A stretch of 64,000 bases of DNA from Hominimerdicola alba 8. GTDB lineage: Bacteria > Bacillota > Clostridia > Oscillospirales > Ruminococcaceae. A program made the position numbers and the translations under genes. The first letter of the stretch is position 1. Each line of letters starts with the position of its first letter. The stretch is from NCBI RefSeq assembly GCF_000178155.2, contig NZ_ADKM02000050.1, positions 1-64,000 on the forward strand, written 5' to 3'. The notes beneath the pieces are model-generated. The model did not search any database and was not told the origin of the DNA. It saw only the letters and a program-made list of their open reading frames with translations. Shown here piece after piece: positions 19,515-41,906 of this stretch.

Positions 19515-19611
19515 ATCCCAGTTTTGATGTGTATTGCTGATGATACAAAATGGCTGTTCTTTCGTATTGTTCCCCCGCCTTCGGCGGGGGAACAATACAC
19601 AACCAAATTGG
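19515..19611. mobile_element. Miniature inverted-repeat element, family 2, long form
   Basis: A 97 bp element with imperfect terminal inverted repeats (CCCAGTTTTGATGTGTATTG against CCAATTTGGTTGTGTATTG). It is flanked by an exact 11 bp direct repeat, TTTTCTTTATA (19504-19514 and 19612-19622), a target-site duplication. Its centre carries a GC-rich palindrome at 19565-19597. The right duplication overlaps the stop codon of the leftward DUF3592 gene, so the insertion landed at the end of that gene without destroying it. It has no coding capacity. Confidence 0.85.
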
Positions 19612-19617
19612 TTTTCT

Positions 19618-20190
19618 TTATATGGACTGCTTGTCTTTCTCACCTGCATTGTCTTTCTTATCTTCGGGCTTTTTCCTGTCCCGCAAAATATAGACCAGCC
19701 ACCCCTTAAACACCAGCATCAGCACCCCCAGTGCCGTCAGCACACTGCCAATAATTATCTTGTCTTTGGGTCCCCCCTCAACATAGTAACTGTAACCGTC
19801 GGGGTCGTAGTATACCTTTACGTTCCCGCCTTCTTTAAAGCCGTCCTTTTCGATATATATTTCATGTACAGGACACTTGCTGTCATTTACCTCTATATAA
19901 GTGTGATATGTCCTGACTGTTGTCGGTCTGCCTCTTCTTGACCTGCTCGTTCTCGTGGTCACTTTTACATCAGTCACATAGCCCACAGCTTCGGCTGTAC
20001 ATTTTTTCTTTAGTTCGTATTCCGTTTTCAGATAGTTTATACCCGCTCCCGCAAGCACAAGGTCAACTATCACCAAAAACGCCAAAATAATGCGTATTGC
20101 CAGCTTCGCTCTCTTCTTTTTCTTAGCTTCCAGCTCCTGCCTCTGAGCTTCCAGCTTCTGCCTTTCTTTTTTCTTTCTTCTGCTCGCCAT
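19618..20190 (-). CDS. DUF3592-like membrane protein
   Basis: A 190-residue protein. A highly basic N-terminus (about 1-28, mostly Lys, Arg, Glu) precedes a membrane helix (about 30-50). A soluble beta-rich domain follows (about 60-140: AEAVGYVTDVKVTTRT and GGNVKVYYDPDGY), then a second helix (about 145-168) and a charged tail. The VxVYYDPxxP-like turn is the hallmark of DUF3592. Its function is unknown. The start is the ATG at 20190 with GAGGTG 5 nt upstream; an in-frame GTG 6 nt earlier is less likely. Confidence 0.72.
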   Translation of the reverse strand: MASRRKKKERQKLEAQRQELEAKKKKRAKLAIRIILAFLVIVDLVLAGAGINYLKTEYELKKKCTAEAVGYVTDVKVTTRTSRSRRGRPTTVRTYHTYIEVNDSKCPVHEIYIEKDGFKEGGNVKVYYDPDGYSYYVEGGPKDKIIIGSVLTALGVLMLVFKGWLVYILRDRKKPEDKKDNAGEKDKQSI

Positions 20191-20253
20191 GTTCACACCT
20201 CACATTTTATGCGTACAGTATACCACTGCGCTGAAGATTTGTCAAGATTTGTA

Positions 20254-20282
20254 TTGACAAAGACGGAATAACGTGTTATCAT
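20254..20282 (+). promoter_or_regulatory. Promoter of the GNAT gene
   Basis: TTGACA and TATCAT with a 17 bp spacer. Transcription should begin near 20288, at the first leader hairpin. Confidence 0.8.
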
Positions 20283-20287
20283 TATAG

Positions 20288-20455
20288 TGACCTCCCGCTG
20301 ATGCGGTGCGGGGTCATATAATATAATTGTAAGGAGTTAATTGTTTGAAACTTACTAGAACGGAGATAGCAGACTGATCGGGAGATCAGCTGTCAACACC
20401 CCGATCTCCCGATCCAAAAACGCATTGTTTAACGTTTGAACGGGAGGAAATAACT
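20288..20455 (+). promoter_or_regulatory. Structured 5' leader with two hairpins
   Basis: The leader between the promoter and the GNAT start is about 170 nt. Hairpin 1 (20288-20316) pairs TGACC and CCGC with GCGG and GGTCA. Hairpin 2 (20376-20414) has a perfect 12 bp stem, GATCGGGAGATC with its near-mirror. Between them AAGGAG precedes a possible five-codon frame, TTG TTT GAA ACT TAC TAG. No T-run follows hairpin 2, so it is not an ordinary terminator. Confidence 0.5.
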
Positions 20456-21079
20456 ATGGATAATTTTATAATACGCCTTGAGACCGAAAACGACCGCAGA
20501 GAGAACGAGTTTCTTGTACGCGAAGCATTCTGGAACGTCTATAAGCCGGGGTGCAGTGAGCATTATGTACTGCATGTCCTGCGTGATGACCCCGCTTTCG
20601 TGAAAGAACTCAACTTCGTGATGGTGCAAAACGGCAGACTTATCGGGCAGAACATCTTTGTCAGAACAGTGATAAACGCCGATGACGGCAGAGTTGTCGA
20701 TGTGCTTACGATGGGTCCCATCTGCATAACCCCCGATTTACAGCACACGGGTCTTGGCAGGAAACTGCTGGACTTCACCGTTGAAAAAGCCCGCAGTATG
20801 GGCTTCGGCGCAGTGCTGTTCGAGGGCAATATAAACTTCTACGGCAAAAGCGGTTTTGACTATGCCGAGAAATTCGGCATACGCTACCATGACCTGCCCG
20901 ATGGCGCAGATCAGTCATTCTTCCTCTGCAAAGAATTGAAAGAGGGCTATCTTGACGGCGTTACAGGCGTGTATCAGACACCGCAGGGGTACTATGTCCC
21001 CGATGACGAGGTGGAAGAGTTCGACAAGATCTTTCCGCCAAAGCAAAAGCTGAAACTCGCAGGACAGATATTCGGATAA
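20456..21079 (+). CDS. GNAT family N-acetyltransferase
   Basis: A 207-residue acetyltransferase. The acetyl-CoA motif DLQHTGLGRKLLDF is at about residues 98-111, followed by GFGAVLFEGNINFYGKSGFDYA, typical of YhbS-like GNATs that carry a C-terminal extension. The extension (about 140-207) may shape substrate choice. The substrate is unknown. SD GGGAGGA precedes the ATG. It stands alone between its own promoter and terminator. Confidence 0.85.
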   Translation: MDNFIIRLETENDRRENEFLVREAFWNVYKPGCSEHYVLHVLRDDPAFVKELNFVMVQNGRLIGQNIFVRTVINADDGRVVDVLTMGPICITPDLQHTGLGRKLLDFTVEKARSMGFGAVLFEGNINFYGKSGFDYAEKFGIRYHDLPDGADQSFFLCKELKEGYLDGVTGVYQTPQGYYVPDDEVEEFDKIFPPKQKLKLAGQIFG

Positions 21080-21085
21080 CAAACA

Positions 21086-21117
21086 GACCCGATGGTGCAT
21101 GCCGCCATCGGGTCTTT
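21086..21117 (+). terminator. Terminator of the GNAT gene
   Basis: A 10 bp perfect stem, GACCCGATGG with CCATCGGGTC, followed by TTTATA. The T-run is short. Confidence 0.8.
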
Positions 21118-21194
21118 ATAGTAAACGACAATTAAAATTTCACATAGACCGCTCGAAGATACTTCTCTCATTGTATCTGTGGTCGTTTACTATA
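21117..21194. repeat. Inverted-repeat element with TATAGTAAACGAC ends
   Basis: A 78 bp element bounded by perfect 13 bp inverted repeats (TATAGTAAACGAC and GTCGTTTACTATA). The same end sequence occurs singly at 6449, 29961 and 41081. Its right end abuts the -35 box of the next promoter. No clear target duplication is visible. Confidence 0.75.
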
Positions 21195-21195
21195 A

Positions 21196-21224
21196 TTGAC
21201 AAGTGCGGGAAATCGTGGTATAAT
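21196..21224 (+). promoter_or_regulatory. Consensus promoter of the trmN6-like operon
   Basis: TTGACA and TATAAT with a 17 bp spacer. The -35 box starts 2 bp after the inverted-repeat element ends. Confidence 0.9.
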
Positions 21225-21281
21225 CAATTCCGACAACACTCTTTTTCTGCGGAACATACCAAAGCATGATGAAAGGACGAT

Positions 21282-22004
21282 ATGATGGAATATACCGACT
21301 TCACCTTTGAATCGCTGGGCGACGGCATAGAGATATGTATATCTGAGGAACACCGCTTCGGCACTGACGCTTTTCTGCTGGCGGATTTCTCGCAGGCAAG
21401 ACGCAAAGACCTGTGTGCCGACTTCTGCACAGGCAGCGGCATCATAGCCATGCTGTTATATAAAAATTTCAAGCCGAAACTCACCTACGCGCTGGAGATA
21501 CAGGAAAAAGCCCACGACCAGCTGAAAGTTTCGCTGGAACGCTCGAAGATAGACAGCATTATCCCCGTACTGGGCGACTTGAAAGACTGGCGCGCCGAAA
21601 AAGAACTCGACCTGATAACCTGCAACCCGCCCTATAAAATAAACAACACAGGCGAAAAAAATGACAGCGAAGCGGTGTCCATCGCCCGACATGAAATGAT
21701 GTGTACGGTGGACGATGTTTGCGCCGCCGCAAAGCGCAGTCTGAAATTCGGCGGCAGACTTTGCCTTTGCAACCGCCCCGAACGCCTCTGCGATATAATG
21801 ACCGCCATGCGTGCAAACGGCATAGAACCCAAACGCCTGCGCACAGTCCACAAAAACCCGAACTGCCCGCCCTGGCTGATACTTGTCGAGGGGCGCAAGG
21901 GCGGCAGGAATTTTTTGCAGATAGAAAAGCCGCTTTACGTGCGTTCGGCTGACGGCGGGCTTTCACCTGAGATGAACCGCATCTATCACCTTGATGAAAC
22001 GTGA
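21282..22004 (+). CDS. tRNA1(Val) A37 N6-methyltransferase-like protein
   Basis: A 240-residue class I methyltransferase resembling TrmN6/YfiC. The N-terminal FGTDAFLLADF is the family signature, ADFCTGSGIIAMLL is motif I (about 46-59), and the catalytic motif for amino-nitrogen methylation is NPPYK (about 114-118). TrmN6 methylates A37 of tRNA1(Val) in E. coli; the target here is inferred. ATG at 21282 is followed immediately by a second ATG, either of which fits the AAAGGA upstream. It leads a small operon with the two following genes. Confidence 0.85.
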   Translation: MMEYTDFTFESLGDGIEICISEEHRFGTDAFLLADFSQARRKDLCADFCTGSGIIAMLLYKNFKPKLTYALEIQEKAHDQLKVSLERSKIDSIIPVLGDLKDWRAEKELDLITCNPPYKINNTGEKNDSEAVSIARHEMMCTVDDVCAAAKRSLKFGGRLCLCNRPERLCDIMTAMRANGIEPKRLRTVHKNPNCPPWLILVEGRKGGRNFLQIEKPLYVRSADGGLSPEMNRIYHLDET

Positions 22005-22016
22005 GGATAAACGAGA

Positions 22017-22391
22017 ATGAAAAACTTTAAACTCTATACCCCCGAAAAATATAACACCGCCGATTACGAAAAGGCAGGGCAGGGCATTTACAAAAATGCA
22101 GGCGGCGACTATGTAACTTCGCTGACCTTTGAGATGGATAACACCCGCTTCGGTGAGGAAGAGGACTGTCCGCAGGACATCTCGCAGACCCCGTTTGAAG
22201 ACCTGCTGGATTCCTATATGGTCTGGGTGTCGGATTTCTACGATGACCTCAACGCAGAAAGTGAAGTCACCTGCTATCAGGAATTTGCATCAGGCAATAT
22301 CGCAGATATAGAAAAACTGCTCACCATCATCGGCAAACAGTTCTATGCAGTCGATGACGGCGACGGCTATTACCACACAGTAACAGAATGA
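22017..22391 (+). CDS. Hypothetical acidic protein
   Basis: A 124-residue, acidic, soluble protein with no signal peptide and no motif I recognise. It starts 12 nt after the methyltransferase gene and its stop overlaps the next start (ATGA), so it is a genuine operon member. Aromatic and acidic residues are frequent throughout. Function unknown. Confidence 0.7.
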   Translation: MKNFKLYTPEKYNTADYEKAGQGIYKNAGGDYVTSLTFEMDNTRFGEEEDCPQDISQTPFEDLLDSYMVWVSDFYDDLNAESEVTCYQEFASGNIADIEKLLTIIGKQFYAVDDGDGYYHTVTE

Positions 22392-22861
22392 AGTACACCA
22401 TAAGACACCTCGCCCCCGCAGAATACCCGCTTTTAGAGGACTTCCTCTACAACGCCATCTTTATCCCCGATGGGGTATCACCGCCGCCGCGCGAGATAGT
22501 AAAACAGCCTGAGTTACAACTCTATATAAAAGATTTCGGGAAAAAGCCCGCCGACATCGCCCTCTGTGCCGAAGCTGACGGCAAAGTGGTCGGCGCTGTG
22601 TGGGTGCGCATCATGGAGGACTACGGACATATTGATGATAACACCCCGTCTTTCGCCATATCGCTCTATAAAGAGTACCGCAGTCGGGGGATAGGCACAG
22701 CGCTTATGTCAAAAATGCTTGAAGAACTTAAAAATGCGGGATTTGCACAGGCTTCCCTCGCAGTACAGAAAGCCAACTACGCCGTCAAGATGTACCGCAA
22801 AGTCGGCTTTGAAACAGTCGGTGAAAACGATGAAGAGTTCATCATGCTGTGCAGACTGTGA
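22388..22861 (+). CDS. GNAT family N-acetyltransferase
   Basis: A 157-residue acetyltransferase with the acetyl-CoA motif YKEYRSRGIGTALMSKML at about residues 97-114 and a C-terminal ASLAVQKANYAVKMYRKVGF typical of the fold. The ATG overlaps the previous stop by 4 nt. The substrate is unknown. A degenerate repeat element follows about 50 bp downstream, and no clear terminator was seen. Confidence 0.83.
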   Translation: MKYTIRHLAPAEYPLLEDFLYNAIFIPDGVSPPPREIVKQPELQLYIKDFGKKPADIALCAEADGKVVGAVWVRIMEDYGHIDDNTPSFAISLYKEYRSRGIGTALMSKMLEELKNAGFAQASLAVQKANYAVKMYRKVGFETVGENDEEFIMLCRL

Positions 22862-22911
22862 ACTTCACCTCAATACACCGCTCAATTATCCTTTTGTTCA
22901 CCGCATTTTTA

Positions 22912-23046
22912 GTTGGTGTGCTAAAGGGATAGTCATAATTATCGGTAATTGAATATAGTTGGCGCTTTTCTTTCCCCAGCCGCAGGCGAGGGAAAGAAAA
23001 CATCTCGGTAATGTTCCTTGTTATAGGTGTATCAAAGAGATGACCA
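22912..23046. mobile_element. Rearranged, degenerate family 1 inverted-repeat element
   Basis: It contains one family 1 end (GGTGTGCTAAAGGGATAGTCAT, 22915-22936), then the internal family sequence (GAATATAGTTGGCG), the central palindrome at 22966-23000, and a diverged opposite end (GGTGTATCAAAGAGATGACC). AATTATCG occurs just after both ends. The order suggests an insertion beside, or internal rearrangement of, an older copy. Confidence 0.7.
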
Positions 23047-23084
23047 ATTATCGCAAACCATGATCTTACTTAGGAGATGATCGC

Positions 23085-24101
23085 ATGAAAATATTGGGAA
23101 TTGAAAGCAGTTGTGACGAAACAGCCATATCCGTCACTGAAAACGGCAGAACGGTGCTGTCAAACATAGTGGCTTCACAGATAGACGAACACAGGCTTTA
23201 CGGCGGTGTCGTGCCTGAGATAGCTTCCCGCCGCCACGCCGAGAATATCTCATGGGTGGCAAAAGCGGCACTGGAAGAAGCACACTGCACTATGGACGAC
23301 ATCGATGCGGTGGCTGTCACATACGCACCGGGACTGATAGGCGCACTGCTGGTGGGTGTCAGCTTCGCAAAAGGCCTTGCGATGAGCGCAAAAAAGCCCC
23401 TTGTGCCCGTTCACCATATCGCAGGGCATATAGCCTCGAACTACATATCCCACCCCGACCTTGAACCGCCTTACCTCTGCCTTGTGGCATCGGGCGGGCA
23501 TTCTCACATAGTTGAGGTCAAAGACTACACCCACTACCACGTTGTCGGCAGAACGCGCGATGATGCCGCAGGCGAATGCTTCGATAAAGTCGCCCGCACA
23601 CTGGGCTATGAATATCCGGGCGGAAAATTCATTGATGCCGCCGCAAAACTGGGCGACCCCAAAGCATATACCCTCCCCAAGCCCCGCGTAACGGGCAGTG
23701 AGTATGATTTCAGCTTTTCGGGACTTAAGACCGCAGTTATCAACCTCGTCCACAACGCACAGCAGAAAGGCGAAGAGATAGACCGCGAGGGCATGGCGGC
23801 TTCATTCCAGTCCACCGTAGCAAAAACGCTGGTGGAAAAGACTCTGCTTGCCGCCAAAGACTTAGGATACACCACCATCGGTCTTGCAGGCGGAGTTTCT
23901 GCCAATTCGGGCGTGCGCACCCTTTTACAGAGCGAGTGTGAAAAGCGCGGCTATAAAGTCTACATGCCCGACCTCAAATACTGCGGCGACAACGGCGCGA
24001 TGATATCCTGTCAGGGCTATTACGATTTCCTTGCAGGCAAACGCGCAGACGAAAGTCTTAACGGCATAGCCACACTTTCGCTTGACGCAATTTCCGAATA
24101 A
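23085..24101 (+). CDS. tsaD: tRNA N6-adenosine threonylcarbamoyltransferase
   Basis: A 338-residue Kae1/TsaD protein that transfers the threonylcarbamoyl group to A37 of ANN-decoding tRNAs. It begins with ILGIESSCDETA, has the metal-binding HHIAGH (His111 and His115), the nucleotide-binding ASGGHSHI, and GLAGGVSANSGVR near the C-terminus. Length and motifs are standard. AGGAG precedes the ATG. The usual partners tsaB and tsaE are not adjacent. Confidence 0.97.
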   Translation: MKILGIESSCDETAISVTENGRTVLSNIVASQIDEHRLYGGVVPEIASRRHAENISWVAKAALEEAHCTMDDIDAVAVTYAPGLIGALLVGVSFAKGLAMSAKKPLVPVHHIAGHIASNYISHPDLEPPYLCLVASGGHSHIVEVKDYTHYHVVGRTRDDAAGECFDKVARTLGYEYPGGKFIDAAAKLGDPKAYTLPKPRVTGSEYDFSFSGLKTAVINLVHNAQQKGEEIDREGMAASFQSTVAKTLVEKTLLAAKDLGYTTIGLAGGVSANSGVRTLLQSECEKRGYKVYMPDLKYCGDNGAMISCQGYYDFLAGKRADESLNGIATLSLDAISE

Positions 24102-24118
24102 AATACTTGCCAATGAAG

Positions 24119-24150
24119 AAAGGACTGACAGCTGTTGTCAGTCCTTTCCT
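24119..24150 (+). terminator. Terminator of tsaD
   Basis: A 12 bp stem (AAAGGACTGACA) with a 5-base loop. The stem itself ends in TTT, followed by CCTG, so the U-tract is short. Confidence 0.75.
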
Positions 24151-24206
24151 GCGTTATCCGACTGCGAATAACATCGCTCCATTTACCCTTGCGGAACTTC
24201 TTTGTG

Positions 24207-25898
24207 TCATTTGTTCATTTCGTACTTGTGTTTTGTCAGCCTGTCCTCAAACTCGTTCAGCGGCAGAGGTTTGTCAAACAAAAAGCCCTGTGCGAATGAA
24301 CACCTGTTATCCCTCAGCACATCTACCTGATGCTCTGTTTCAACGCCCTCCGCTATCGTTTCAAGACCCAGCGCCTTAGCCATAGCCACCACATACTTGA
24401 ACATTATCGTCCTTGTACTCTCGGCGCTGTCATCATCAACAGGCAGGAAACTCTTGTCAACTTTCAGCACGTTCCAGGGTATCTCACGTATCAGCTTCAG
24501 CGATGAATAACCCATTCCGAAATCGTCCACCGAAGTATATATGCCCGCCATCTGCAAACCGTTCACGACTCGCTTGAGGTCTTTGAACTCAACATCTGTG
24601 GTAGTTTCCGTCAGTTCTATCTCTATGTACTTGTGAGGTACTTCGTTCTCATCGATTATCCGCAATATGTGTTCCAGCAGGTCAACATCCATCATGTGCT
24701 TGCGCGAAAGGTTAACCGATACCCTTACCACATTTCTGCCCTCAGCCAGCCACCGCTTGATATCCTTGCAGACCATATCCAGCATGTGGAAATCCAGCTT
24801 GCAGATGTCTGTGTTCTGCTCCAGTATAGGTATGAACTCCATCGGCGGGACTATCCTGCCGTCCCTTATCCAGCGGCAGAGCGCTTCAGCACCCGCCAGC
24901 TCACCTGTTTCAATGTCGATCTTAGGCTGATAGAATACCTTGAACTCGCCGTTTTCCAACGCTTTCGGGAAAAGCTGCTGTACCCGCATGACCTTTTCCT
25001 TGCCCTCTACCATTCTGCTGTTAAAGTACACTATGCTCTCCTGACCGCCTTCTCTCGCCGCCCGCGAACATGTCAGCACCTTGTCCATCACATCACCGAG
25101 ATTGCGGTACACAAAGTCATCGGGTATCACAAAAACCCCTGCGCTCGAAGATACCATCACCCGCTTCTCGCCCCCGACATCGTAGGCGACAGGCGCACTT
25201 TTCATGACCTCCAGTATAGGCGCTATCCTTTCAGAAGCGAACATGCACACGAAGTTGTCACCGCCCACGCGGCAGACTATGCCGTCATCGCCCACCAGCT
25301 TCCCTATCTCATTGAAATAGTTCTTCATGGCGATATCACCGCTCGTCCTGCCTATCTCCTGATTTATCAGTGTAAAATGCCGCAGGTTGAAATGCACCGC
25401 AGTGTAGCCGTAAAGCCTGTTGTTCTCAGCGTGCTTTTCGAGATATCTGGTAAAACTGCGCAGATTCGGGTAACCCGATTCGTCATAGAATGTCATCTGC
25501 TCAACGATATCCTGCAAATTGTTGTGGATTATAACGCGGAGTACTATGCGCATGATAAGGTCTACCTTTTTGCGCTCGTCCTCTTCAAGCGGGCATGCAC
25601 CCTCAGCCTGATATACCGTACACTTAGCCACCGCCATATTTTTGGTGACCACACGCTTCTCCATGAGGACAGTTCCTTCCTCACCACTGTCAAAACAGAT
25701 AAAGCGGTCACCCTTGCCGACCTGTTCATATGATATGGACTTGTAATATTCCGTAACGCCCTTAGATATATTAAAAAGCCCGCAAAGCCCCGCCAGCGCA
25801 CTTGTGATACTCTCAATATCAAAGCCCGCCTCTGATGTGACAGCTTCATTCAATTCTTCCAGCAAAACGTAATACCGCGACAGTTTATCCTCTTTCAT
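24207..25898 (-). CDS. EAL-domain protein with degenerate GGDEF domain
   Basis: A 563-residue cytoplasmic protein without membrane segments. Its N-terminal region (1-130) is GAF-like. A GGDEF domain (about 135-295) carries GGDNF at 212-216, so diguanylate cyclase activity is unlikely; such domains often bind GTP and regulate. The EAL domain (about 305-560) keeps the key residues: EAL at 338-340, Asn396 in VNLSRKH, Glu431 in LTET, DDFGMGYSS at 458-466, Lys482 and EGVE at 517-520. It is predicted to be an active cyclic-di-GMP phosphodiesterase. Monocistronic, with its own promoter. Confidence 0.9.
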   Translation of the reverse strand: MKEDKLSRYYVLLEELNEAVTSEAGFDIESITSALAGLCGLFNISKGVTEYYKSISYEQVGKGDRFICFDSGEEGTVLMEKRVVTKNMAVAKCTVYQAEGACPLEEDERKKVDLIMRIVLRVIIHNNLQDIVEQMTFYDESGYPNLRSFTRYLEKHAENNRLYGYTAVHFNLRHFTLINQEIGRTSGDIAMKNYFNEIGKLVGDDGIVCRVGGDNFVCMFASERIAPILEVMKSAPVAYDVGGEKRVMVSSSAGVFVIPDDFVYRNLGDVMDKVLTCSRAAREGGQESIVYFNSRMVEGKEKVMRVQQLFPKALENGEFKVFYQPKIDIETGELAGAEALCRWIRDGRIVPPMEFIPILEQNTDICKLDFHMLDMVCKDIKRWLAEGRNVVRVSVNLSRKHMMDVDLLEHILRIIDENEVPHKYIEIELTETTTDVEFKDLKRVVNGLQMAGIYTSVDDFGMGYSSLKLIREIPWNVLKVDKSFLPVDDDSAESTRTIMFKYVVAMAKALGLETIAEGVETEHQVDVLRDNRCSFAQGFLFDKPLPLNEFEDRLTKHKYEMNK

Positions 25899-25960
25899 AG
25901 TTATTCCCCAATTCTATATCTTTTCCTGTAAACGCATGAAGCGACTTGTTTCTAATGTAT

Positions 25961-25989
25961 ATTATATCACTTTTTCACTTAAATTTCAA
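25961..25989 (-). promoter_or_regulatory. Promoter of the EAL gene
   Basis: TTGAAA and TATAAT with a 17 bp spacer on the minus strand. Confidence 0.85.
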
Positions 25990-26162
25990 GCATTATTCTG
26001 ATAAAATAGCAAAATAATTATAATTTAGATACATTATCTTACAAATTCAATCAATTATTCATCTTGAAAACGTTTATTATACCATTTGCACAATCACAGG
26101 CTAAAGCCATTGACAAAATCGCCAAATATATGGTATCATATTCTGCGGGGAAGATATACCTG

Positions 26163-26192
26163 CAAAAAATACCCCGCGCATTCAGCGCGGGG
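26163..26192 (-). terminator. Terminator of the GH130 gene
   Basis: An 8 bp GC stem (CCCCGCGC) with a 5-base loop; on the minus strand it is followed by TATTTTTTG. Confidence 0.92.
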
Positions 26193-26208
26193 CATCAGTA
26201 TCATACTA

Positions 26209-28768: not shown

Positions 28769-28774
28769 CCCATA

Positions 28775-28807: not shown

Positions 28808-28826
28808 ACGCACACTCATTAGTTAT

Positions 28827-32152: not shown

Positions 32153-32193
32153 AAATTACCCCATCGTATCATGTCTGTAGTATAAAGCATCAA

Positions 32194-32314
32194 ATGGCTG
32201 TCCCTTTTGCACGCCTCATATCTTTCCCCCGCCGCATGCGGGGGAAAGATATACAACGACCACCTTAAGTTCTGTAAAACCGCTGTTTTTGTGGTGTGTC
32301 AGCGTGATAACCAC
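32194..32314. mobile_element. Miniature inverted-repeat element, family 1
   Basis: A 121 bp copy with diverged ends (ATGGCTGTCCCTTTTGCAC on the left; GTGTGTCAGCGTGATAACCAC on the right) and a central palindrome (32218-32251, TCTTTCCCCCGC arms). No exact target duplication is visible; a second palindrome starts directly at its right end and may have removed it. Confidence 0.75.
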
Positions 32315-32417
32315 TATAGCAATCCAACTATTTAAATTCACAAAATCCAGTCGCAAAAGCTCGGATCTATGGATTTTGTGACTGGATTTTGTCTGAATTT
32401 TAAGGCGGATTGCTATA
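32315..32417. repeat. 103 bp palindromic element
   Basis: Arms beginning TATAGCAATCC and ending GGATTGCTATA enclose longer complementary stretches (ACAAAATCCAGTC with GACTGGATTTTGT). The whole sequence can fold into one hairpin. A shortened relative is at 4052-4096. It directly abuts the family 1 element on its left. Confidence 0.8.
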
Positions 32418-32465: not shown

Positions 32466-32490
32466 CTTCCCCCGACATTGTCGGGGGAAG
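32466..32490. repeat. Stand-alone GC palindrome
   Basis: CTTCCCCCGAC, ATT, GTCGGGGGAAG: an 11 bp perfect stem with a 3-base loop. It resembles the palindromes inside the mobile elements but has no element ends around it. Confidence 0.7.
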
Positions 32491-34252: not shown

Positions 34253-34344
34253 CAGCGCACATTGTTATACCGTCATTCTGAGCGGCGTTTGAAGGGATAA
34301 CCATAAATATAATTTTTGCATTAGCACACAAGGAGGATATTCAA

Positions 34345-35358
34345 TTGTCTGAAACAAAAAAGGTAACAGGAATAAAGGTAAAGGGTATAGGCAAGTATGT
34401 GCCCGAGATGATAGCATCGAACGAGGATTTCGCTAAGATAGTCGATACCAGTGATGAGTGGATAACCCAGCGTACAGGCATCAAGACAAGGCACATCACC
34501 AACGGCGAACCTACCTACTGGATAGGCGCTGAGGCGGCTAAGAAAGCCATCGCTGATGCGGGCATAGATGTCAGCGAGATAGACCTTATCATCTGCGCCA
34601 CAGTTACACCTGATTTCTACACACCCTCTACCGCCTGTCTTATACAGCGCGAGATAGGCGCTATAGGTTCAATGGCGATAGACATAAACTGTGCCTGCAC
34701 AGGCTTCGATTACGGTCTTGATATGGCAAGGCGCTACCTGCTTTCCGAGGACGATGTGAACACTGTTCTGCTGGTATCGGCAGAGGAACTTTCAAAGTTC
34801 ACCGACTATACTGACCGTTCAAGCTGTATCCTCTTTGGTGACGGCGCGGCGGCATTCGTGCTGGAAAGAAAGTACGATGCACTTTACTCGGCTTATCTGG
34901 GCGCAGACGGCAGCGGCGCTAAATTCCTTGTTTCACGCGCCATGAGGAGCGAGAACGTATTCCGCACCAACAAGGAAGATTTCGATATGGGCATGCCCGA
35001 AACAAAACTCCACTACTTCACACAGGACGGCAAAGAGGTATACAAGTTCGCGACTAAGGCACTGCCGCTGGCGGTAACAAAGGCTTGTGAAAAGGCGGGC
35101 ATCTCCCCCGAAGACCTTGACGCTATCGTTCCCCATCAGGCTAATGTGCGCATAATCGAAACTGCCGCAAAAAATCTTGGCGTTTCGATGGACAAGATGG
35201 TGGTATACATAGACCGCTACGGCAACACATCTTCGGCATCTATACCGATAGCTTTCTGTGATGCGGTGGCTGAGGGCAGGATAAAGCGCGGCGACAAGAT
35301 ATGCTTTGTAGGCTTCGGCGGCGGTCTGACCTACGCGGGCATAATATTTGAATACTGA
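34345..35358 (+). CDS. fabH: 3-oxoacyl-ACP synthase III
   Basis: A 337-residue initiating condensing enzyme that joins acetyl-CoA (or a branched starter) with malonyl-ACP. The catalytic triad is Cys118 (NCACTGFDYG), His264 (VPHQANVRI) and Asn294 (YGNTSSASIPIA). Translation starts at TTG, with AAGGAGGA 7 nt upstream. Its stop overlaps the next ATG. Confidence 0.96.
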   Translation: MSETKKVTGIKVKGIGKYVPEMIASNEDFAKIVDTSDEWITQRTGIKTRHITNGEPTYWIGAEAAKKAIADAGIDVSEIDLIICATVTPDFYTPSTACLIQREIGAIGSMAIDINCACTGFDYGLDMARRYLLSEDDVNTVLLVSAEELSKFTDYTDRSSCILFGDGAAAFVLERKYDALYSAYLGADGSGAKFLVSRAMRSENVFRTNKEDFDMGMPETKLHYFTQDGKEVYKFATKALPLAVTKACEKAGISPEDLDAIVPHQANVRIIETAAKNLGVSMDKMVVYIDRYGNTSSASIPIAFCDAVAEGRIKRGDKICFVGFGGGLTYAGIIFEY

Positions 35359-36029
35359 TGGGTTCCAGGCTGATGCACTTCGCGCTTGGCAAGACACTTG
35401 CCGAGCGGCTGGACATCAATGATAAAGAGGGTCTTATCATCGGCAGTATACTGCCCGATGCACTTCCCGCCAAAGAGAAGCAGGAGCGCAATTCGCACTT
35501 CATATCTGTATTTGATGACGGGCGTTACAAGTGGTTCGACAGTCTGACTTTCTTTGAAAAGTACAGGCAAGAGGTCATGGAAGACCCGATATATCTGGGG
35601 TATTATTTCCATCTTATCTCAGACAATATCTTCCGTCAGACCTTTTACATCGACATGGGGCTTCTTTCACGGCGCGGCGAGAAGAGCCTGTTTGAAGAAT
35701 TCTACCGCGACTACAATCTGCTCAACCCCATGATAACAGAAAATTTCGGTCTGACAAGGACGCTGACAGTCCCCGAAAGGCTGAGAGATACGCGGCTGTA
35801 TCGTGATTTCGGCTTTGAACCTGAAAACCTCATAGCTGATATTTACGCGGACATGCAGATGCACATCGAGGGCGAACTGATGCACTTTGATATGGATATA
35901 GTGCGCGGCTTTGTTGAAAAGAGCGCTGATGTCTGCATGAAAGAATATGCTGCTATAAAAGAGGGCAGACACGTTTACACCAAGTACGAAATGGCGATAG
36001 AGAACCATTATTCCAAAAGCGGCAAATAA
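35358..36029 (+). CDS. Zinc-dependent phospholipase C-like protein
   Basis: A 223-residue soluble, mainly helical protein. The pattern MHFALGKTLAE, GSILPDALPA and YYFHLISDNIFRQ, with His and Asp residues spaced as metal ligands, resembles the zinc-dependent phospholipase C/S1-P1 nuclease-like domain common in Firmicutes. It overlaps fabH by 1 nt (TGATG), so it is translated with it. A lipid-related role is suggested by position only. It has no signal peptide, unlike secreted phospholipase C. Confidence 0.65.
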   Translation: MGSRLMHFALGKTLAERLDINDKEGLIIGSILPDALPAKEKQERNSHFISVFDDGRYKWFDSLTFFEKYRQEVMEDPIYLGYYFHLISDNIFRQTFYIDMGLLSRRGEKSLFEEFYRDYNLLNPMITENFGLTRTLTVPERLRDTRLYRDFGFEPENLIADIYADMQMHIEGELMHFDMDIVRGFVEKSADVCMKEYAAIKEGRHVYTKYEMAIENHYSKSGK

Positions 36030-36068
36030 AACGAATTTAAAGAAAATATATAAAGAGAGGTAAAAACA

Positions 36069-37007
36069 ATGACTACCACAAAAACAAGGATAACCGACCT
36101 GCTGGGCATAAAGTACCCTATACTTCAGGGCGGCATGGCATGGGTCGCTGAACACACACTGGCAAGCGCTGTCACAAATGCAGGCGGCGCAGGCATAATC
36201 GCAGGCGGCTCGGCACCCATCGACTACCTGCGCGAGCAGATAAGGCTGACCAAAGCCGCTGTGGGCGACAAGCCTTTCGGTGTGAACATCATGCTGATGA
36301 GCCCGAATGCTGACGACCTGGCAAAGCTGGTCATCGAAGAGGGCGTGCCTTTTGTAACAACAGGCGCGGGCAATCCGGGCAAGTACATGGCAGACTGGAA
36401 AGCCGCAAATATCAAAGTGATACCTGTTGTTCCCTCTGTTGCGCTGGCAAAGAGAATGGAGAGAAGCGGCGCTGACGCAGTCATCGCTGAGGGCACCGAG
36501 TCGGGCGGTCACATCGGTGAGAACACTACGATGTGCCTTGTTCCGCAGGTAGTTGACGCAGTTGAGATACCCGTTATCGCAGCAGGCGGCATCGCTGACG
36601 GCAGAGGTATCTGCGCAAGTTTCATGCTGGGCGCTGAGGGCGTTCAGGTGGGCACACGCTTCCTCGCCGCTGAGGAATGTCAGATACACCCCACCTACAA
36701 GGAACTGGTAGTCAAGGCTAAGGACACTGACAGCGTGGTAACCGGCAGAACTACAGGTCACCCATGCAGAAATGTCAAGACAAAGTTCTTAAAACAGCTG
36801 GCTAAGCGCGAGATGGAGGGCGGTATCGACCCTGACGAGTTTGAGAAGATAACACTCGGCGCACTGAGAAAGGCTGTTCAGGACGGCAACCTCGATGAGG
36901 GTTCGTTCCTCTGCGGCGCTATCGCGGGCATGGTAAACGAAGTAAAGCCTGCGAAGGAGATAGTCGAGGAAATGTTCGCACAGGCAGAAGCGATATTTAA
37001 TTCATAA
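36069..37007 (+). CDS. fabK: FMN-dependent enoyl-ACP reductase
   Basis: A 312-residue TIM-barrel flavoprotein of the FabK/nitronate monooxygenase family that performs the last reduction of the elongation cycle. Typical segments are YPILQGGMAWVAEHTLA, AEGTESGGHIGE (FMN and substrate site) and IAAGGIADGRG with GVQVGTRFLA (FMN phosphate). FabK replaces FabI in many Firmicutes and confers natural triclosan tolerance in known cases. GAGAGG precedes the ATG. Confidence 0.95.
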   Translation: MTTTKTRITDLLGIKYPILQGGMAWVAEHTLASAVTNAGGAGIIAGGSAPIDYLREQIRLTKAAVGDKPFGVNIMLMSPNADDLAKLVIEEGVPFVTTGAGNPGKYMADWKAANIKVIPVVPSVALAKRMERSGADAVIAEGTESGGHIGENTTMCLVPQVVDAVEIPVIAAGGIADGRGICASFMLGAEGVQVGTRFLAAEECQIHPTYKELVVKAKDTDSVVTGRTTGHPCRNVKTKFLKQLAKREMEGGIDPDEFEKITLGALRKAVQDGNLDEGSFLCGAIAGMVNEVKPAKEIVEEMFAQAEAIFNS

Positions 37008-37080
37008 TTTTTTGTGGTCAAAGGTCGGCGCTTTTATCGCCTGACTATCCTGACAATGATATTTGACGGAGGAAAATAAA

Positions 37081-37815
37081 ATGGCAACAGCATTTATAAC
37101 AGGTTCGGCAAGAGGTATCGGTGCGGCTATCGCGCTCAGACTTGCTGAGGACGGTTTTGACATAGCACTCAACGACATCAGCGAGGCTATGTTCGAGGAT
37201 AACGATATAATGGAAAAGATAGCCGCAAAGGGCGTAAAGGTACAGAAGTTCATCTGCGATGTATCGAACTACGCACAGGCTGAGGAAACTGTAAAAGCTA
37301 TCAAGGCTGAGTTCGGTTCTATCGATGTTCTTGTAAACAACGCGGGCATCACAAGGGACGGTCTGATGGCGAGAATGAGCGAAGAACAGTATGACATGGT
37401 AGTTGCTGTCAACCAGAAGAGCGTTTTCAACATGTCTAAGTTCGTGGGCAACGTTATGATGCGCCAGAAGTCGGGCAGGATAATCAACCTTGCTTCGGTG
37501 GCAGGCGTTTACGGCAATCCCGGACAGATAAACTATTCGGCAACAAAAGCCGCTATCATCGGCATGACAAAGACTGTCGCCAAGGAACTGGGTTCGCGCG
37601 GCATCACCTGCAACGCGGTAGCGCCGGGCTTCATCAAGACCCCCATGACCGACAAGCTGACCGATGACCAGAAGAACGCTATGCTGGGTCAGATAGCTAT
37701 GAAGCGTTTTGGCGAGGTCGAGGACATCGCGGGCGTGGTATCTTTCCTCGCTTCAAAGGACGCGGCTTACGTGACAGGACAGGTCATCGAGATAAGCGGC
37801 GGCATAATGATGTAA
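37081..37815 (+). CDS. fabG: 3-oxoacyl-ACP reductase
   Basis: A 244-residue short-chain dehydrogenase. NADPH motif GSARGIG is at residues 8-14, NNAG at about 86-89, and the catalytic residues are Ser139, Tyr152 and Lys156 (NYSATKAA). The start is the ATG at 37081, with GGAGG upstream, rather than an in-frame TTG 18 nt earlier. Confidence 0.96.
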   Translation: MATAFITGSARGIGAAIALRLAEDGFDIALNDISEAMFEDNDIMEKIAAKGVKVQKFICDVSNYAQAEETVKAIKAEFGSIDVLVNNAGITRDGLMARMSEEQYDMVVAVNQKSVFNMSKFVGNVMMRQKSGRIINLASVAGVYGNPGQINYSATKAAIIGMTKTVAKELGSRGITCNAVAPGFIKTPMTDKLTDDQKNAMLGQIAMKRFGEVEDIAGVVSFLASKDAAYVTGQVIEISGGIMM

Positions 37816-37861
37816 AACCGATAAATATGGATATATCTCTAAATTACAAGGAGTGTTTTAA

Positions 37862-39097
37862 TTGAGCAGAAGAGTAGTGATAACGGGTATGGGTACCATA
37901 AACCCGCTGGGCAAAAATGTTGAAGAGTTCTGGGAGAACATCAAGGCGAACAAGAACGGTCTTAGTTACATCGACCAGTTCGATGCCTCTGATTTCCCCG
38001 TTAAGATAGTCGGTGCAGTCAAGGATTTTGACCCCACCGAGTATATAGAGAAGAAAGAAGCAAAGCGCATGGACAGGTTCACACAGTTCGCGCTGGCGGC
38101 TTCAAAGCAGGCGCTTGAGAACGCGGGCAGCGACCTCAAAGACCTTGATCCTTTCCGTGTGGGCGTTATAATCGGTGTAGGCATCGGCGGTCTGAACATG
38201 ACCGAAGCTGAGGTGACAAAATTCAACGAGAAGCCCGATAAGGTATCGGTATTCTTCATACCCATGATGATAGGCAATATGGCGGCAGGCACAGTTGCAA
38301 TGAAAACAGGCTTCAAGGGCGATAACTACTGCACCACCACTGCATGTTCATCTGCTACCCACGCCATCGGTGAGGCTTTCCGCAAGATAAAGGACGGCTA
38401 TCTCGATGCCTGCCTCTGCGGCGGTTCTGAGGCTTGCATATCCAGATTTGCACTCAGCGGCTTCAACAACATGAAAGCCCTCTCGCAGGCTACCGACCTT
38501 GACAAGGCTTCCACACCTTTCGATGCGAACCGTCAGGGCTTCGTACTGGGCGAAGGTTCGGGCATGCTGGTGCTGGAAGAGTATGAACACGCAAAGGCAA
38601 GGGGCGCAAACATCATCGCAGAAGTTGCAGGCTACGGCGCAACAGGCGATGCTTACCACATGACCAGCCCTTCACCTACAGGCGAAGCTGCTGCACATGC
38701 TATGGAAATGGCATACAAGGAGGCAGGTCTTGCGCCTGAGCAGGTAAACTACATCAACGCACACGGCACTTCAACAGGGCTGAACGACAAGTACGAAACA
38801 AACGCTATCAAGATAGCGCTCGGTGAAGATGCTGCGCGTAAGACAGTCATCAATTCCACTAAGTCTATGGTAGGTCATCTGCTGGGCGCGGCAGGCGGCG
38901 TTGAAGCCATCGTTACTGCACTGTCTGTAAAGAACGACTTCGTACACAAGACCATAAACTTCACCACCCCCGACCCTGAGTGCGACCTTGACTACGCAGT
39001 TGATGCCAACCGCGAGATGCCCGTATATGCGGCACTTTCAAACTCGCTGGGCTTCGGTGGTCACAATGCTACGATCTGCATAAAGAAGTGCGACTAA
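37862..39097 (+). CDS. fabF: 3-oxoacyl-ACP synthase II
   Basis: A 411-residue elongation condensing enzyme. The catalytic triad is Cys162 (TTACSSATHAIG), His301 (NAHGTSTGLND) and His339 (MVGHLLGAAGG). Translation starts at TTG (37862) with AAGGAG 8 nt upstream. Confidence 0.97.
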   Translation: MSRRVVITGMGTINPLGKNVEEFWENIKANKNGLSYIDQFDASDFPVKIVGAVKDFDPTEYIEKKEAKRMDRFTQFALAASKQALENAGSDLKDLDPFRVGVIIGVGIGGLNMTEAEVTKFNEKPDKVSVFFIPMMIGNMAAGTVAMKTGFKGDNYCTTTACSSATHAIGEAFRKIKDGYLDACLCGGSEACISRFALSGFNNMKALSQATDLDKASTPFDANRQGFVLGEGSGMLVLEEYEHAKARGANIIAEVAGYGATGDAYHMTSPSPTGEAAAHAMEMAYKEAGLAPEQVNYINAHGTSTGLNDKYETNAIKIALGEDAARKTVINSTKSMVGHLLGAAGGVEAIVTALSVKNDFVHKTINFTTPDPECDLDYAVDANREMPVYAALSNSLGFGGHNATICIKKCD

Positions 39098-39118
39098 TAG
39101 AAAAGGAGAATATCACCG

Positions 39119-39601
39119 ATGAGTGAGAAGATACACGGTCAGTTCGACCTTGAAACAATTGAGAAGCTCGCTGATATAATCAACGCTAAGGAACTCTCCG
39201 AGTTGACTATAACCGACGGCGGCACTACCATCACCATTAAGGGCAAAAGACCTGCTCCTGCGCCCGCTCCTATCCCTATGATGCCCCCGATTGGCGCACC
39301 CGCAGGCATGCCTCAGATGCCCGCACCCGCACAGGGCTTTGATGCCCCCGCAGCTGCACCCGTTTCGGGCAAGCAGGTGAAAGCGCCTATCGTAGGCACT
39401 TTCTATTCTGCACCGTCACCCGATTCAAAGCCTTTCGTAAAGGTAGGCGACAGGGTGAAGAAGGGCGATGTCATCTTCATCATCGAATCGATGAAGGTGA
39501 TGAGCGAGGTGCCCAGCGAATTTGACGGCGTTGTAAAGGAGATATGTGTTCAGAACGGCGATGCGGTCGAATATGACCAGACTATAATGGTGCTTGAATA
39601 A
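39119..39601 (+). CDS. accB: Acetyl-CoA carboxylase biotin carboxyl carrier protein
   Basis: A 160-residue carrier. A short N-terminal helical region is followed by an Ala/Pro/Met-rich flexible linker (about 45-82) and the biotinyl domain, with biotin on Lys126 in ESMKVM. It is separated from accC by four genes and a mobile element, whereas accB and accC are usually neighbours. Confidence 0.96.
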   Translation: MSEKIHGQFDLETIEKLADIINAKELSELTITDGGTTITIKGKRPAPAPAPIPMMPPIGAPAGMPQMPAPAQGFDAPAAAPVSGKQVKAPIVGTFYSAPSPDSKPFVKVGDRVKKGDVIFIIESMKVMSEVPSEFDGVVKEICVQNGDAVEYDQTIMVLE

Positions 39602-39650
39602 CTCCCCTTTCGTTTAAACGCGGCGTTTGCCCGCAGAAAGGCTGACAACT

Positions 39651-40100
39651 ATGAAAAAGATCTATCTTAAATTCACCATTGCGGCAGTTGTTATGCAGCT
39701 GCTTTTGTGGGCAGTATTCTGCCTGTACGACTACGAGATAGACGAGGGCAGGATACGCATTCATTACATTTTGCGATACATCGTTGATTTTCTGTTGCTT
39801 TTCGCACTGCCTGCCGTTCCTGCGGTGCTGTACCTGCTAAAAGAGAAGCTGTTCAGCACAGGCGAGCGCATAAAGGATACTGCGATACACTGTATCATAT
39901 GGACGGCTGTATCGGCACTGATATCACTGCCGCTCTGGGATGCCGTTAATTACGACCACTGGTTCATTCATCAGAGGCGTATAATGTTCAACGGTATGGA
40001 GTATCTGATATTCGCCATCACATCAGCCGCAGGCTTTGTACTGCTAACACCGATAGCTATGGGCATTCGCCATTTTGTCAGAAAAAAGCGGGGTGCATGA
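39651..40100 (+). CDS. Four-helix membrane protein of unknown function
   Basis: A 149-residue membrane protein with four predicted helices (about 6-27, 45-68, 80-100, 115-137). The start is the ATG at 39651 with GAAAGG upstream; the longer in-frame TTG is unsupported. It forms a pair with the next gene, which has the same size and topology, and the two may be distant paralogues. No family was recognised. Confidence 0.7.
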   Translation: MKKIYLKFTIAAVVMQLLLWAVFCLYDYEIDEGRIRIHYILRYIVDFLLLFALPAVPAVLYLLKEKLFSTGERIKDTAIHCIIWTAVSALISLPLWDAVNYDHWFIHQRRIMFNGMEYLIFAITSAAGFVLLTPIAMGIRHFVRKKRGA

Positions 40101-40104
40101 TATT

Positions 40105-40578
40105 ATGGAACAGTATGATATCCATCCGCGCAGGAATTTCCTGATATTCTGCGTTGCAGTGCATCTTGCGGGCTTTTTCGCGGCAATAGTCACCGACTAT
40201 CTTGATAATTTTCTTGACGATGATACGAACAAATATGTGTACTTTGCGTGTCTGCCGCTGGCCGCGATGCCGATAGCTTATCTGATAAACTACAAAAAGC
40301 TGACAGGTGAAAGTGACTCCGCAGTGGGCAAGCACTTCAAGGAAATAGGCATATGGCTGTTGACCGTATTCCCGATGGGTGCGATCTTGTTCACGGTACT
40401 CTTAGCTTTACGTGTCACTGAGCACATTTATAGTGCAGCTGAGTATTATCTGGGCTATCTTGGGGTATGTACGCTGAGCATATTTTTTGTTACACCGCTG
40501 TACAAGATGGGCAGAATGATAATATCAGCAGGCAGAAAATCTGACGATGACTATTACCGCTATTACGGCGGTATGTGA
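40105..40578 (+). CDS. Four-helix membrane protein of unknown function
   Basis: A 157-residue membrane protein with four helices (about 12-33, 47-65, 80-105, 113-135) and a Tyr/Asp-rich C-terminal tail. It starts 4 nt after the preceding stop at ATG 40105. Topology and size match its upstream neighbour. Both lie inside the fatty-acid operon between accB and fabZ. Confidence 0.7.
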   Translation: MEQYDIHPRRNFLIFCVAVHLAGFFAAIVTDYLDNFLDDDTNKYVYFACLPLAAMPIAYLINYKKLTGESDSAVGKHFKEIGIWLLTVFPMGAILFTVLLALRVTEHIYSAAEYYLGYLGVCTLSIFFVTPLYKMGRMIISAGRKSDDDYYRYYGGM

Positions 40579-40645
40579 GATGCTTCACAACAAATGAAAA
40601 CACCGACCCTGACGGTCAAAAATAAATCTGAAAGGAGCTGCTGAG

Positions 40646-41077
40646 ATGGCAGTTTTAATGAATAAAGAACAGATAATGGAAGTCATACCCCACCGCGACC
40701 CTTTCCTGCTCATTGATGAGATAAACGAACTGGAAGTCGGCAAGAGGGTGAAAGCCACAAAGTACATAAAGGAAGATGATTTCTGGTTCAAGGGTCACTT
40801 TCCGCAGTACCCTGTTACTCCGGGTGTGCTGATGGTGGAGATGTGCGCACAGGCGGGCGCTGTTGCTCTGCTGGCACTGCCTGAGAACAAGGGCAAGATA
40901 GGTTTCTTCGGCGGCATCAACGACTGCAAGTTCCGCCAGCAGGTGGTACCGGGCGACACGCTGGAGATAGAAGTCGAGATCATCAAGGTAAAGGGACCTA
41001 TCGGCGTGGGCAAGGCGCTGGCTACCGTAGGCGGCAAGAAGGCTGTTTCCTGCGAGATAACATTTGCAATAAAGTAA
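40646..41077 (+). CDS. fabZ: 3-hydroxyacyl-ACP dehydratase
   Basis: A 143-residue hot-dog fold dehydratase. The catalytic residues are His51 (FKGHFPQYPVTPG) and Glu65 (MVEMCAQAG), with HRDPFLLID at the N-terminus. AAAGGAG precedes the ATG. Confidence 0.96.
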   Translation: MAVLMNKEQIMEVIPHRDPFLLIDEINELEVGKRVKATKYIKEDDFWFKGHFPQYPVTPGVLMVEMCAQAGAVALLALPENKGKIGFFGGINDCKFRQQVVPGDTLEIEVEIIKVKGPIGVGKALATVGGKKAVSCEITFAIK

Positions 41078-41080
41078 CAT

Positions 41081-41096
41081 ATGGTAAACGACATAA
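41081..41096 (+). repeat. Single copy of the GTAAACGAC tag
   Basis: ATGGTAAACGACATAA lies 3 nt after the fabZ stop, the same position relative to the upstream gene as the copy after cysK. Confidence 0.5.
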
Positions 41097-41129
41097 AAAC
41101 AGGGCATCTTCCGAAAAGGAGAGTCTGAC

Positions 41130-41732
41130 ATGAAGCCTGACCTGAAAAAAATGCAGTGGACAAGACCTCCGCATTCTTTCACTATCGGAGAGGATAAGGT
41201 GGAGATAGTCACCGAACCGCACACCGACTTGTGGCAGAGGACTTATTATCATTTCCGCAACGACAATGCCCCTGTTTTACAGGCTGAGAGCGATGAAAAA
41301 TTCTTCTCGTTCACCGTCAGGACAGAGTTTGCATCAACGACCCGATTTGACCAGTGCGGCGTTGCAGTCTACCTTGATTGCGACAACTGGGTAAAGGCAT
41401 CTGTTGAGTACGAAAATGACAGGATACAGCGTCTTGGCAGTGTGGTCACAAACAACGGCTATTCAGACTGGGCATCGGTCGATATCGACGCTTCGGTGAA
41501 AGTCATGTGGTTCAGGCTGAGCCGCCGCGAGGAAGATATCTGCATAGAAAACTCCCTTGACGGCGTGGATTTCAGCCAGATGCGCATCTGCCACCTTTTC
41601 AGCCTGAAAGATACCATAAAATTCGGCATCTACGCATGCAGTCCCGAAGAGTCGTCATTCAGAGCGACTTTCACCGATATGGAGGTCACTGAATGCAAGT
41701 GGCTCGCCCATGACGGTCAGCAGCCCGACTGA
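41130..41732 (+). CDS. DUF1349 concanavalin-like protein
   Basis: A 200-residue beta-sandwich protein of the DUF1349 family (distantly concanavalin A-like). Characteristic segments are RTYYHFRNDNAPVLQ, DQCGVAVYLDCDNWVKASVEYEND and FRLSRREEDICIENSLDG. Members occur widely beside sugar-metabolism genes; the function is unknown. It lacks a signal peptide. Its presence in a fatty-acid operon is unexplained. A mobile element is inserted 12 bp after its stop. Confidence 0.78.
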   Translation: MKPDLKKMQWTRPPHSFTIGEDKVEIVTEPHTDLWQRTYYHFRNDNAPVLQAESDEKFFSFTVRTEFASTTRFDQCGVAVYLDCDNWVKASVEYENDRIQRLGSVVTNNGYSDWASVDIDASVKVMWFRLSRREEDICIENSLDGVDFSQMRICHLFSLKDTIKFGIYACSPEESSFRATFTDMEVTECKWLAHDGQQPD

Positions 41733-41744
41733 TGAAAAACTTAT

Positions 41745-41906
41745 ATGACTATCCCTTTAGCACACCACCAAAAAATACCTTTATAACAAGGAAATACTGA
41801 GTTGATGTTATCTTTCCCCCGCCGCAGGCGGGGGAAAGATAAACGCCAACTATATTCAGTTCCCGATATAACATCGTTTATTTTGGTGTGTCAGCGGGAT
41901 AACCAC
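41745..41906. mobile_element. Miniature inverted-repeat element, family 1, long form
   Basis: A 162 bp element with imperfect terminal inverted repeats (ATGACTATCCCTTTAGCACACCA against GTGGTTATCCCGCTGACACACCA). It is flanked by an exact 10 bp direct repeat, AAAAACTTAT (41735-41744 and 41907-41916). The centre carries a 14 bp-stem GC palindrome at 41810-41840. There is no reading frame for a transposase. It lies within the fatty-acid operon between the DUF1349 gene and accC. Confidence 0.9.

Follow-up and report, generated by a model that had tools for sequence, protein, structure and literature searches.

Why do two unrelated kinds of short repeated element carry the same GC-rich hairpin at their centre, and does this hairpin come and go as a unit of its own or belong to the elements that contain it? 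The question is raised by a 64,000-nucleotide stretch of the Hominimerdicola alba 8 genome (contig NZ_ADKM02000050.1, positions 1 to 64,000; hereafter the window), in which two families of small elements, here called A and B, occur in long forms with a central palindrome and in short forms in which it is no longer intact. The window is part of a 119-kb contig (C87) of a 4.05-Mb genome, and was compared above all with G024, the metagenome-assembled genome (MAG) RUG10798 of an uncultured Ruminococcus congener, which is syntenic with window positions 40000-59900 (identity 90-97% for most pieces and 79% for one). Loci fetched from the own genome, G024 and other congeners are identified by L-numbers. 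The explanation favoured here, to which we assign a probability of about 0.8, is that the hairpin serves as a seam: an element inserts beside or inside another, and the pair then collapses by deletion between the two hairpin cores, giving rise to half-and-half hybrids.

The anatomy of both families is evident from intact copies in the window. The long form of B (19515-19611, plus strand), recognised by matches to the B ends, consists of a left half (BL), a central hairpin at 19564-19598 (GTATTGTTCCCCCGCC-TTC-GGCGGGGGAACAATAC) and a right half (BR), and lies between identical target duplications (TTTTCTTTATA) at 19504-19514 and 19612-19622. The long form of A1 (41745-41907, plus strand) has its hairpin at 41809-41841 (TATCTTTCCCCCGCC-GCA-GGCGGGGGAAAGATA) and identical target duplications (AAAACTTAT) at 41736-41744 and 41908-41916; it has no counterpart in the congener, whose sequence is changed there. 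A first-pass annotation of the window had correctly placed hairpins with CCCCCGCC arms inside both long forms and aligned the rest of each family on either side of them. In general, family A measures ~163 bp with its hairpin and family B ~97 bp, and both have imperfect terminal inverted repeats (TGTGGTTATCCCGCTGACACACC / TATGACTATCCCTTTAGCACACC in A, CTCCCAATTTTGATGTGTATTG / ATCCCAATTTGGTTGTGTATTG in B) and AT-rich target duplications of ~9 bp. End-motif searches, with up to two mismatches for A and up to three for B, gave 185 and 199 genome matches to the two ends of A and 69 to the B ends, against 0, 1 and 0 matches for the reversed-motif controls. At five loci the orthologous site is empty and holds a single target copy (L004/L209, L043/L259, L083/L262, L092/L316 and L094/L313, the last in a repetitive flank; the L092 and L094 sites are those empty in G024). 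The elements of the window, at 65 to 163 bp, are too short for a transposase gene. With inverted ends, target duplications, empty sites and small size, A and B are separate families of miniature inverted-repeat transposable elements (MITEs). Family A comprises at least three subfamilies with differing halves, namely A1, A2 (a and b) and A3, and an A2-element match was obtained in 12 of the 61 genomes searched, all of them within the genus of the window.

The two families share a core, CCCCCGCC-NNN-GGCGGGGG; ten-base arms (TTCCCCCGCC) are identical in A and B hairpins, and the loop and the outer arms differ. The motif CCCGCC..GGCGGG was found twice in the window against 0.01 expected. Genome-wide, the pattern TTYCCCCCGCC..GGCGGGGGRAA, which requires TTY-flanked cores and covers the A arms and only some of the B arms, matched at 55 places (reversed control: 0), and for 50 of these that were listed, A or B ends were present within 100 bases on both sides in 48 and on one side in two (L054 and L056). 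In an unselected sample made up of two whole contigs, C87 (119 kb) and contig C5 of G024 (82 kb), all eight exact cores were flanked by A or B ends. A free-standing hairpin was thus found neither among the 50 listed hits nor among the eight exact cores. The core is likewise central in diverged relatives of A from other congeners (L147 and L148, 74-76% aligned), and the tag GT(A/G)G was present at the stem base in none of 169 exact cores in the fetched sequence, and within 14 bases in one of them. The hairpin is therefore an integral part of the elements and not a unit of the repetitive extragenic palindromic (REP) type. As for the palindromes that had been described as standing alone at 32466 (CCCCCGACATTGTCGGGGG), 41937 (CTCCCGCCGACGGCGAGGG) and 50942 (CACCGCCTGCGGCGGGG), the hairpins exist but have neither the exact core nor recognisable element ends. 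Those at 32466 and 41937 have congener counterparts outside any element, with other elements near 32466 in both genomes. The third (window 50929-50976) differs from G024 by 27 bases between GGCG repeats, the left arm and loop being absent there; it is 72% like the right half of B over 25 bases and, judged by this similarity, may be a decayed B relic.

Evidence for the seam comes from orthologous loci at which the two genomes differ by half an element. At 49792, both genomes share the left flank and the left half, and the window has a short form of B (49792-49856, plus strand) where G024 (L164) has BL, the hairpin and the right half of A2 (A2R); the target duplications lie at 49783-49791 (TCACACAAA; TTACACAAA in the congener) and 49857-49865 (TTACACAAA). 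At L262, G024 has BL+A1R and the own genome A1L+A1R between copies of TTGAAAAA, and at L312, G024 has BR+R4 where the own genome (L052) has A2bL+R4 between copies of TTATTTTTTAT. In these three orthologous swaps, the new outer end is located in or at the target copy of the resident element. Nested arrangements are also present: at L080, an A element lies inside B at the edge of the hairpin, with ATTTCGTATT duplicated, and the congener has the B without the A; at L238 and L239, B lies inside A, and the two hairpins are ~100 bases apart. In addition, two loci have the layout expected as the remainder of a deletion between the hairpins of a nest. At L206, A2R is followed by a decayed hairpin and BL, beyond which lies the remaining outer part of A2L, and ATAAGCATAT bounds the whole at either side. 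At L266, the order is BR, hairpin, A2L and then what is left of the outer part of BL. Finally, single hairpins that combine an A arm with a B arm occur at L176, L185, L255 and L262, and 17 of 93 B elements touch or lie inside an A, a count that has no control.

A single sequence of events would account for these products. Elements of both families would be moved in trans by transposases, each insertion duplicating ~9 AT-rich bases, and would often insert next to or within one another, the points of entry being target duplications, element ends or hairpin flanks. Two elements placed in this way would bring two copies of the core to within ~100 bases of each other, and since the core is self-inverse, these copies form direct repeats in either orientation of the elements. 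Deletion between the cores would then remove the intervening sequence and leave one hairpin with one half from each element; hairpins are also lost by deletion between short chance repeats of which one lies in an arm. We infer the molecular route of this deletion and the acting transposases. Insertion followed by deletion is the most economical account, and it explains why most joints lie in the hairpin, why orientation is irrelevant, why the outer flanks of hybrids between A and B are mostly unmatched and why the new end lies inside the target copy of the resident.

The position of the joints and the state of the flanks were assessed in two surveys. A census seeded on hairpins cannot locate joints, and thus a scan was seeded on element ends, seeking A ends that face B ends with nothing between. 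It returned 19 A-by-B hybrids, one from the own genome and 18 from G024, the G024 loci having been obtained mostly via a B pattern, among the matches listed. The joint falls within the hairpin in 15 of the 19 by reading, the hairpin being decayed in L206 and L196; L266 escaped the scan because its B end is changed. Joints thus favour the hairpin without being confined to it. The census of target duplications (8-10 bases, up to one mismatch) started from 291 hairpins of the fetched sequence, each assigned a type according to its two halves; 73 were excluded because one half scored below the limit, and eight more had no readable end. Duplications flank 152 of 181 pure elements (mixed A2a/A2b elements counted as pure), 11 of 15 chimeras between A subfamilies (two of 17 such chimeras have two right ends), both B elements with two right ends and one of 12 A-by-B hybrids, compared with 405 of 4200 shuffled flank pairs (pure versus A-by-B: Fisher p = 9e-8). 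The A-subfamily chimeras consequently look able to move and the A-by-B hybrids do not. Insertion of B into the own target copy of A would explain the duplication (AAAAAAGAA) of the one exception, L235. When hybrid or chimera sites were looked up in the other genome, nine G024 flanks gave seven long matches and 12 own flanks gave eight; at L057, L049 and L031 the sequence of the other genome is too changed for reading. As a separate observation, an A2L+BR hybrid is present in both genomes at L085 (own) and L317 (G024), between two flank copies of ~130-180 bases, and in L317 the far end of the first flank copy still has a damaged B.

Loss of the hairpin was followed in the short forms. The A1 short form of the window (57165-57281, minus strand; identical target duplications, ATTTATATTT, at 57155-57164 and 57282-57291) corresponds to a long A1 in G024, from which it differs by a 45-bp deletion between two GGGAA repeats, one of them in a hairpin arm. 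Lost are the loop, one arm, part of a half and, in addition, 6 bases at the outer end, while part of the other arm is kept; likewise, the B short form at 49792-49856 retains GGGGAACAATAC of the right arm. The short forms had been described as the long forms minus the palindrome, which holds in that the hairpin is no longer intact but not as a simple removal. The proposal that it is repeatedly lost at short repeats is supported at the orthologous 57165 site (GGGAA) and, for another hairpin, at 50942 (GGCG). Among 100 listed A left ends of the 185, 59 had a listed partner within 3 kb, with spacings of 147-154 bases in 27, 114-115 in 18 and scattered values in 14 (measured between inner end motifs and hence slightly below full length). 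In A2, the form with a spacing of 114-115 lacks the hairpin, with one junction; sequence fetched from two genomes contains 35 such copies and 54 long ones. The search pattern needs both sides of the junction, so that ragged forms lie outside this count. The junction reads GGCGTAT-GGC/GGT/GGGC-GCTC (GGC in 16 copies, GGT in 16 and GGGC in three) in A2a and A2b alike. This form probably spreads, because its copies lie in differing flanks and target duplications are visible for many of them. A 48-base form of B without the hairpin also recurs at several sites. The borders of the other short forms vary, so that the picture is mixed, with one recurrent sharp junction in A2 beside ragged losses. Clean excision does not account for the short forms in general and was rejected as such: L078 is the one B case close to a clean hairpin loss, the remainder having different borders. 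Some short forms keep both ends and appear to spread as elements, probably by movement rather than by arising afresh at each site.

The two arms of the hairpin change together more often than expected. Compared with the consensus, 111 A hairpins had 33 arm positions changed alike in both arms and 81 changed in one arm only, and 95 B hairpins had 15 and 67, respectively; ~1.4 (A) and ~0.7 (B) two-sided changes would be expected if the arms were independent, with shared descent uncorrected, so that the events are fewer than the counts. This reflects either selection on the structure or the re-copying of one mismatched arm from the other. Folding of the RNA against shuffled sequences gave z values of -6 to -8 for the hairpin forms and -2.8 for the B short form. 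These results bear on the explanation that a stable GC hairpin is convergent and is kept for a role in RNA, for example as an RNase site or for end protection, with recombination as a by-product. This explanation is compatible with the seam and deserves to be taken seriously, even if the odds are well short of even: the excess of two-sided changes, the folding scores and the similar GC hairpins of other congeners (L151 and L152) favour it, whereas forms without the hairpin are numerous (35 of one type) and matched arms can also arise by hairpin-templated correction. A role as intrinsic terminator was rejected for A1, as a scan restricted to 41500-42100 gave two terminator-like sites, neither of which is the A1 hairpin. 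Extending the seam to the whole population, the shared self-complementary core might constitute an orientation-independent exchange point of unrelated miniature transposons, which would evolve combinatorially by halves and have their arms re-matched after fusion by hairpin-templated correction. At least five half types were seen for each side, in many pairings; we nevertheless regard this extension as speculative and rather unlikely to hold in full.

Several observations weigh against insertion followed by collapse at the core. No autonomous insertion sequence (IS) sharing the A or B ends was recognised in ~0.35 Mb read from the own genome and 1.0 Mb from G024 (both including overlaps). In four of the 19 hybrids the joint is not in the hairpin: those at L179 and L251 have a more complex structure, L250 involves only the arm of B, and the joint of L260:2487 lies outside both hairpins. 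At six of the 15 hybrid sites matched in the other genome, only absence was found there (L255, L179, L234, L235, L187 and L209). With the G024 sample assembled mostly via a B pattern, the frequencies of hybrids and duplications are not genome-wide rates. The difference at 49792 could possibly be a conversion tract ending in the shared GGGAT. Finally, the 35-copy form of A2 is present in two sublineages, for which a single deletion is no simple explanation, and a tree of the A2 copies (~105 columns, no shuffle control), rejected as too weakly resolved to be relied on, requires at least 20 changes between long and short forms. With regard to a parent IS, the only A end pairs 1-2 kb apart among those listed enclose 1734 and 1764 bases, and both stretches hold separate elements, so that these candidates were rejected; when the open reading frames between four unusual end pairs were translated and judged by reading, with no database search, no transposase was recognised.

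The A2 junction is also the basis for proposing that the hairpin is, at this one site, a truly removable module that has been taken out precisely many times, besides the ragged losses. One and the same junction in both genomes and both sublineages, together with the number of changes on the weak tree, speaks for such removal. Against it, no orthologous pair was found in which one genome has the long form and the other the sharp short form, the copies with target duplications of their own fit the spread of one deleted form, and a TAT repeat with slippage in a G-run would, by reading, give the same junction. Repeated precise removal is therefore considered improbable.

Alternatively, the half-swaps could result from an exchange between dispersed copies (template switching or gene conversion) that begins at the hairpin and ends at a short sequence shared at the element end, with no neighbouring insertion. 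Template switching in hairpins would give matched arms, and the arms do stay matched; furthermore, both element ends at 49792 read GGGAT..ACA, which makes a second switch possible. However, in the three orthologous swaps the outer end lies where a second insertion would put it, in or at the target copy of the resident, nested intermediates and collapsed nests exist, and the A-by-B hybrids are mostly without matching flanks. Exchange between dispersed copies is retained as an alternative origin of the half-swaps, but a quite improbable one.

Whether a transposase suited to mobile palindromes is encoded in the genome had also been raised. Two Y1-type genes are present, one IS200-type and one similar to REP-associated tyrosine transposases (RAYTs). 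The latter (L040:1267-1830, G000:C7) has as its best NCBIfam match the REP-associated tyrosine transposase model, at a score below the cut-off (58.9 of 80 bits), and carries GTAGGGTGGGGGCTTGCCCCCACC in its own reading frame. It contains two palindromes, one GTAG-headed in the orientation of the gene and one inverted, and the palindrome GGTGGGGGC..GCCCCCACC occurs at four places in the genome, two of them inside this gene. The anticipated gene thus exists, but its own palindromes are different and GTAG-tagged, and no A/B-type hairpin with up to 3 mismatches was found in the 3.3-kb L040 locus, the palindromes of which are of other sequence. Hence, although the same core recurs in unrelated elements, a RAYT-like gene is present and one A2 border is sharp, it is scarcely credible, given the lack of free copies among the hits surveyed, of the stem-base tag and of such a hairpin at the Y1 locus, and given the central position of the hairpin in diverged A relatives, that the hairpin is a REP-like unit which a Y1 (TnpA_REP-like) transposase has brought into both families, one of the two alternatives raised by the first-pass annotation.

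Families A and B resemble other MITEs in being short and gene-less, in having inverted terminal repeats, target duplications and many copies, and in giving rise to internal deletion derivatives; they differ in that two families with different ends have a common hairpin core at which halves are joined. MITEs are described as hot spots for homologous recombination in a review (PMC10969869), and the terms 'chimer' and 'nested' do not occur in the part of it consulted. The Correia repeat enclosed elements of Neisseria, according to the part of the source consulted, have a full form of ~150 bp and an internal deletion form of ~105 bp (PMC2649163). Two size classes are likewise apparent in the A spacings of 147-154 and 114-115, but the block missing here is a GC hairpin common to another family, and the ends and the host differ. 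REPs stand on either side of RAYT genes and, in the examples given in the portion consulted, carry a GT(A/G)G head (PMC2817692). Short GC-rich palindromes in many copies and a RAYT-like gene are common to that system and the present genome; in contrast, the hairpin here lacks a GT(A/G)G head and turned up solely within elements that have target duplications. Judging by title alone, Tn3-derived miniature elements (TIMEs) generate mosaic non-autonomous transposons (PMC4133298), whereas here halves are exchanged at a central hairpin. Replacement of inverted repeats of the IS1272 type (PMC5678879) was set aside as a model, since by its title it replaces the whole stem-loop and not one half. In the literature searched, which included few subscription journals, no report was recognised of A or B elements or of half-exchange at a shared hairpin, which is weak evidence of novelty; the one paper that came up for chimeric MITEs deals with chromosomal inversions. 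If the favoured explanation is correct, these loci represent one concrete route to hybrid bacterial miniature transposons, seen at orthologous loci with intermediates, in which a hairpin core common to unrelated families acts as the preferred point at which nested or adjacent copies are joined by deletion. In addition, hundreds of copies in two syntenic genomes provide a natural data set for hairpin loss, arm re-matching and collapse.

Further elements of these and other kinds occur in the window and beyond it. At 22879-23045 (approximate borders) lies a decayed composite of family A, in which an A2-type left half stands beside an A1 piece and a degenerate hairpin is located at 22966-22999. 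A truncated A (32206-32314, plus strand, left border approximate) has a near-exact hairpin at 32219-32251 and an A2b-type right half, and is adjoined at 32315-32417 by a third miniature element, family C (TATAGCAATCC...GGATTGCTATA). Family C, which we take to be IS630-like by convention, is also found nested in family A at L126, L129, L133 and L139 (TAGCAATCC...GGATTGCTA), with a TA duplication. A1 elements lie in opposite orientations in the same target copies, ATATAATTT, at L021 (own) and L286 (G024). G024 also has further elements that resemble family A but differ in their inner halves (such as ACATTTTTGCAAGCAAACAGGGC...), at L163, L172, L176, L204 and L293. Two other Ruminococcus MAGs, RGIG4311 and UBA3800, contain B elements with the shared core (L193 and L232); the one pattern match in Colwellia (L190) does not represent an element. 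In the B elements at L187, L209 and L240 of G024, the sequence of the right end is also found at the left, as though one end had been copied from the other.

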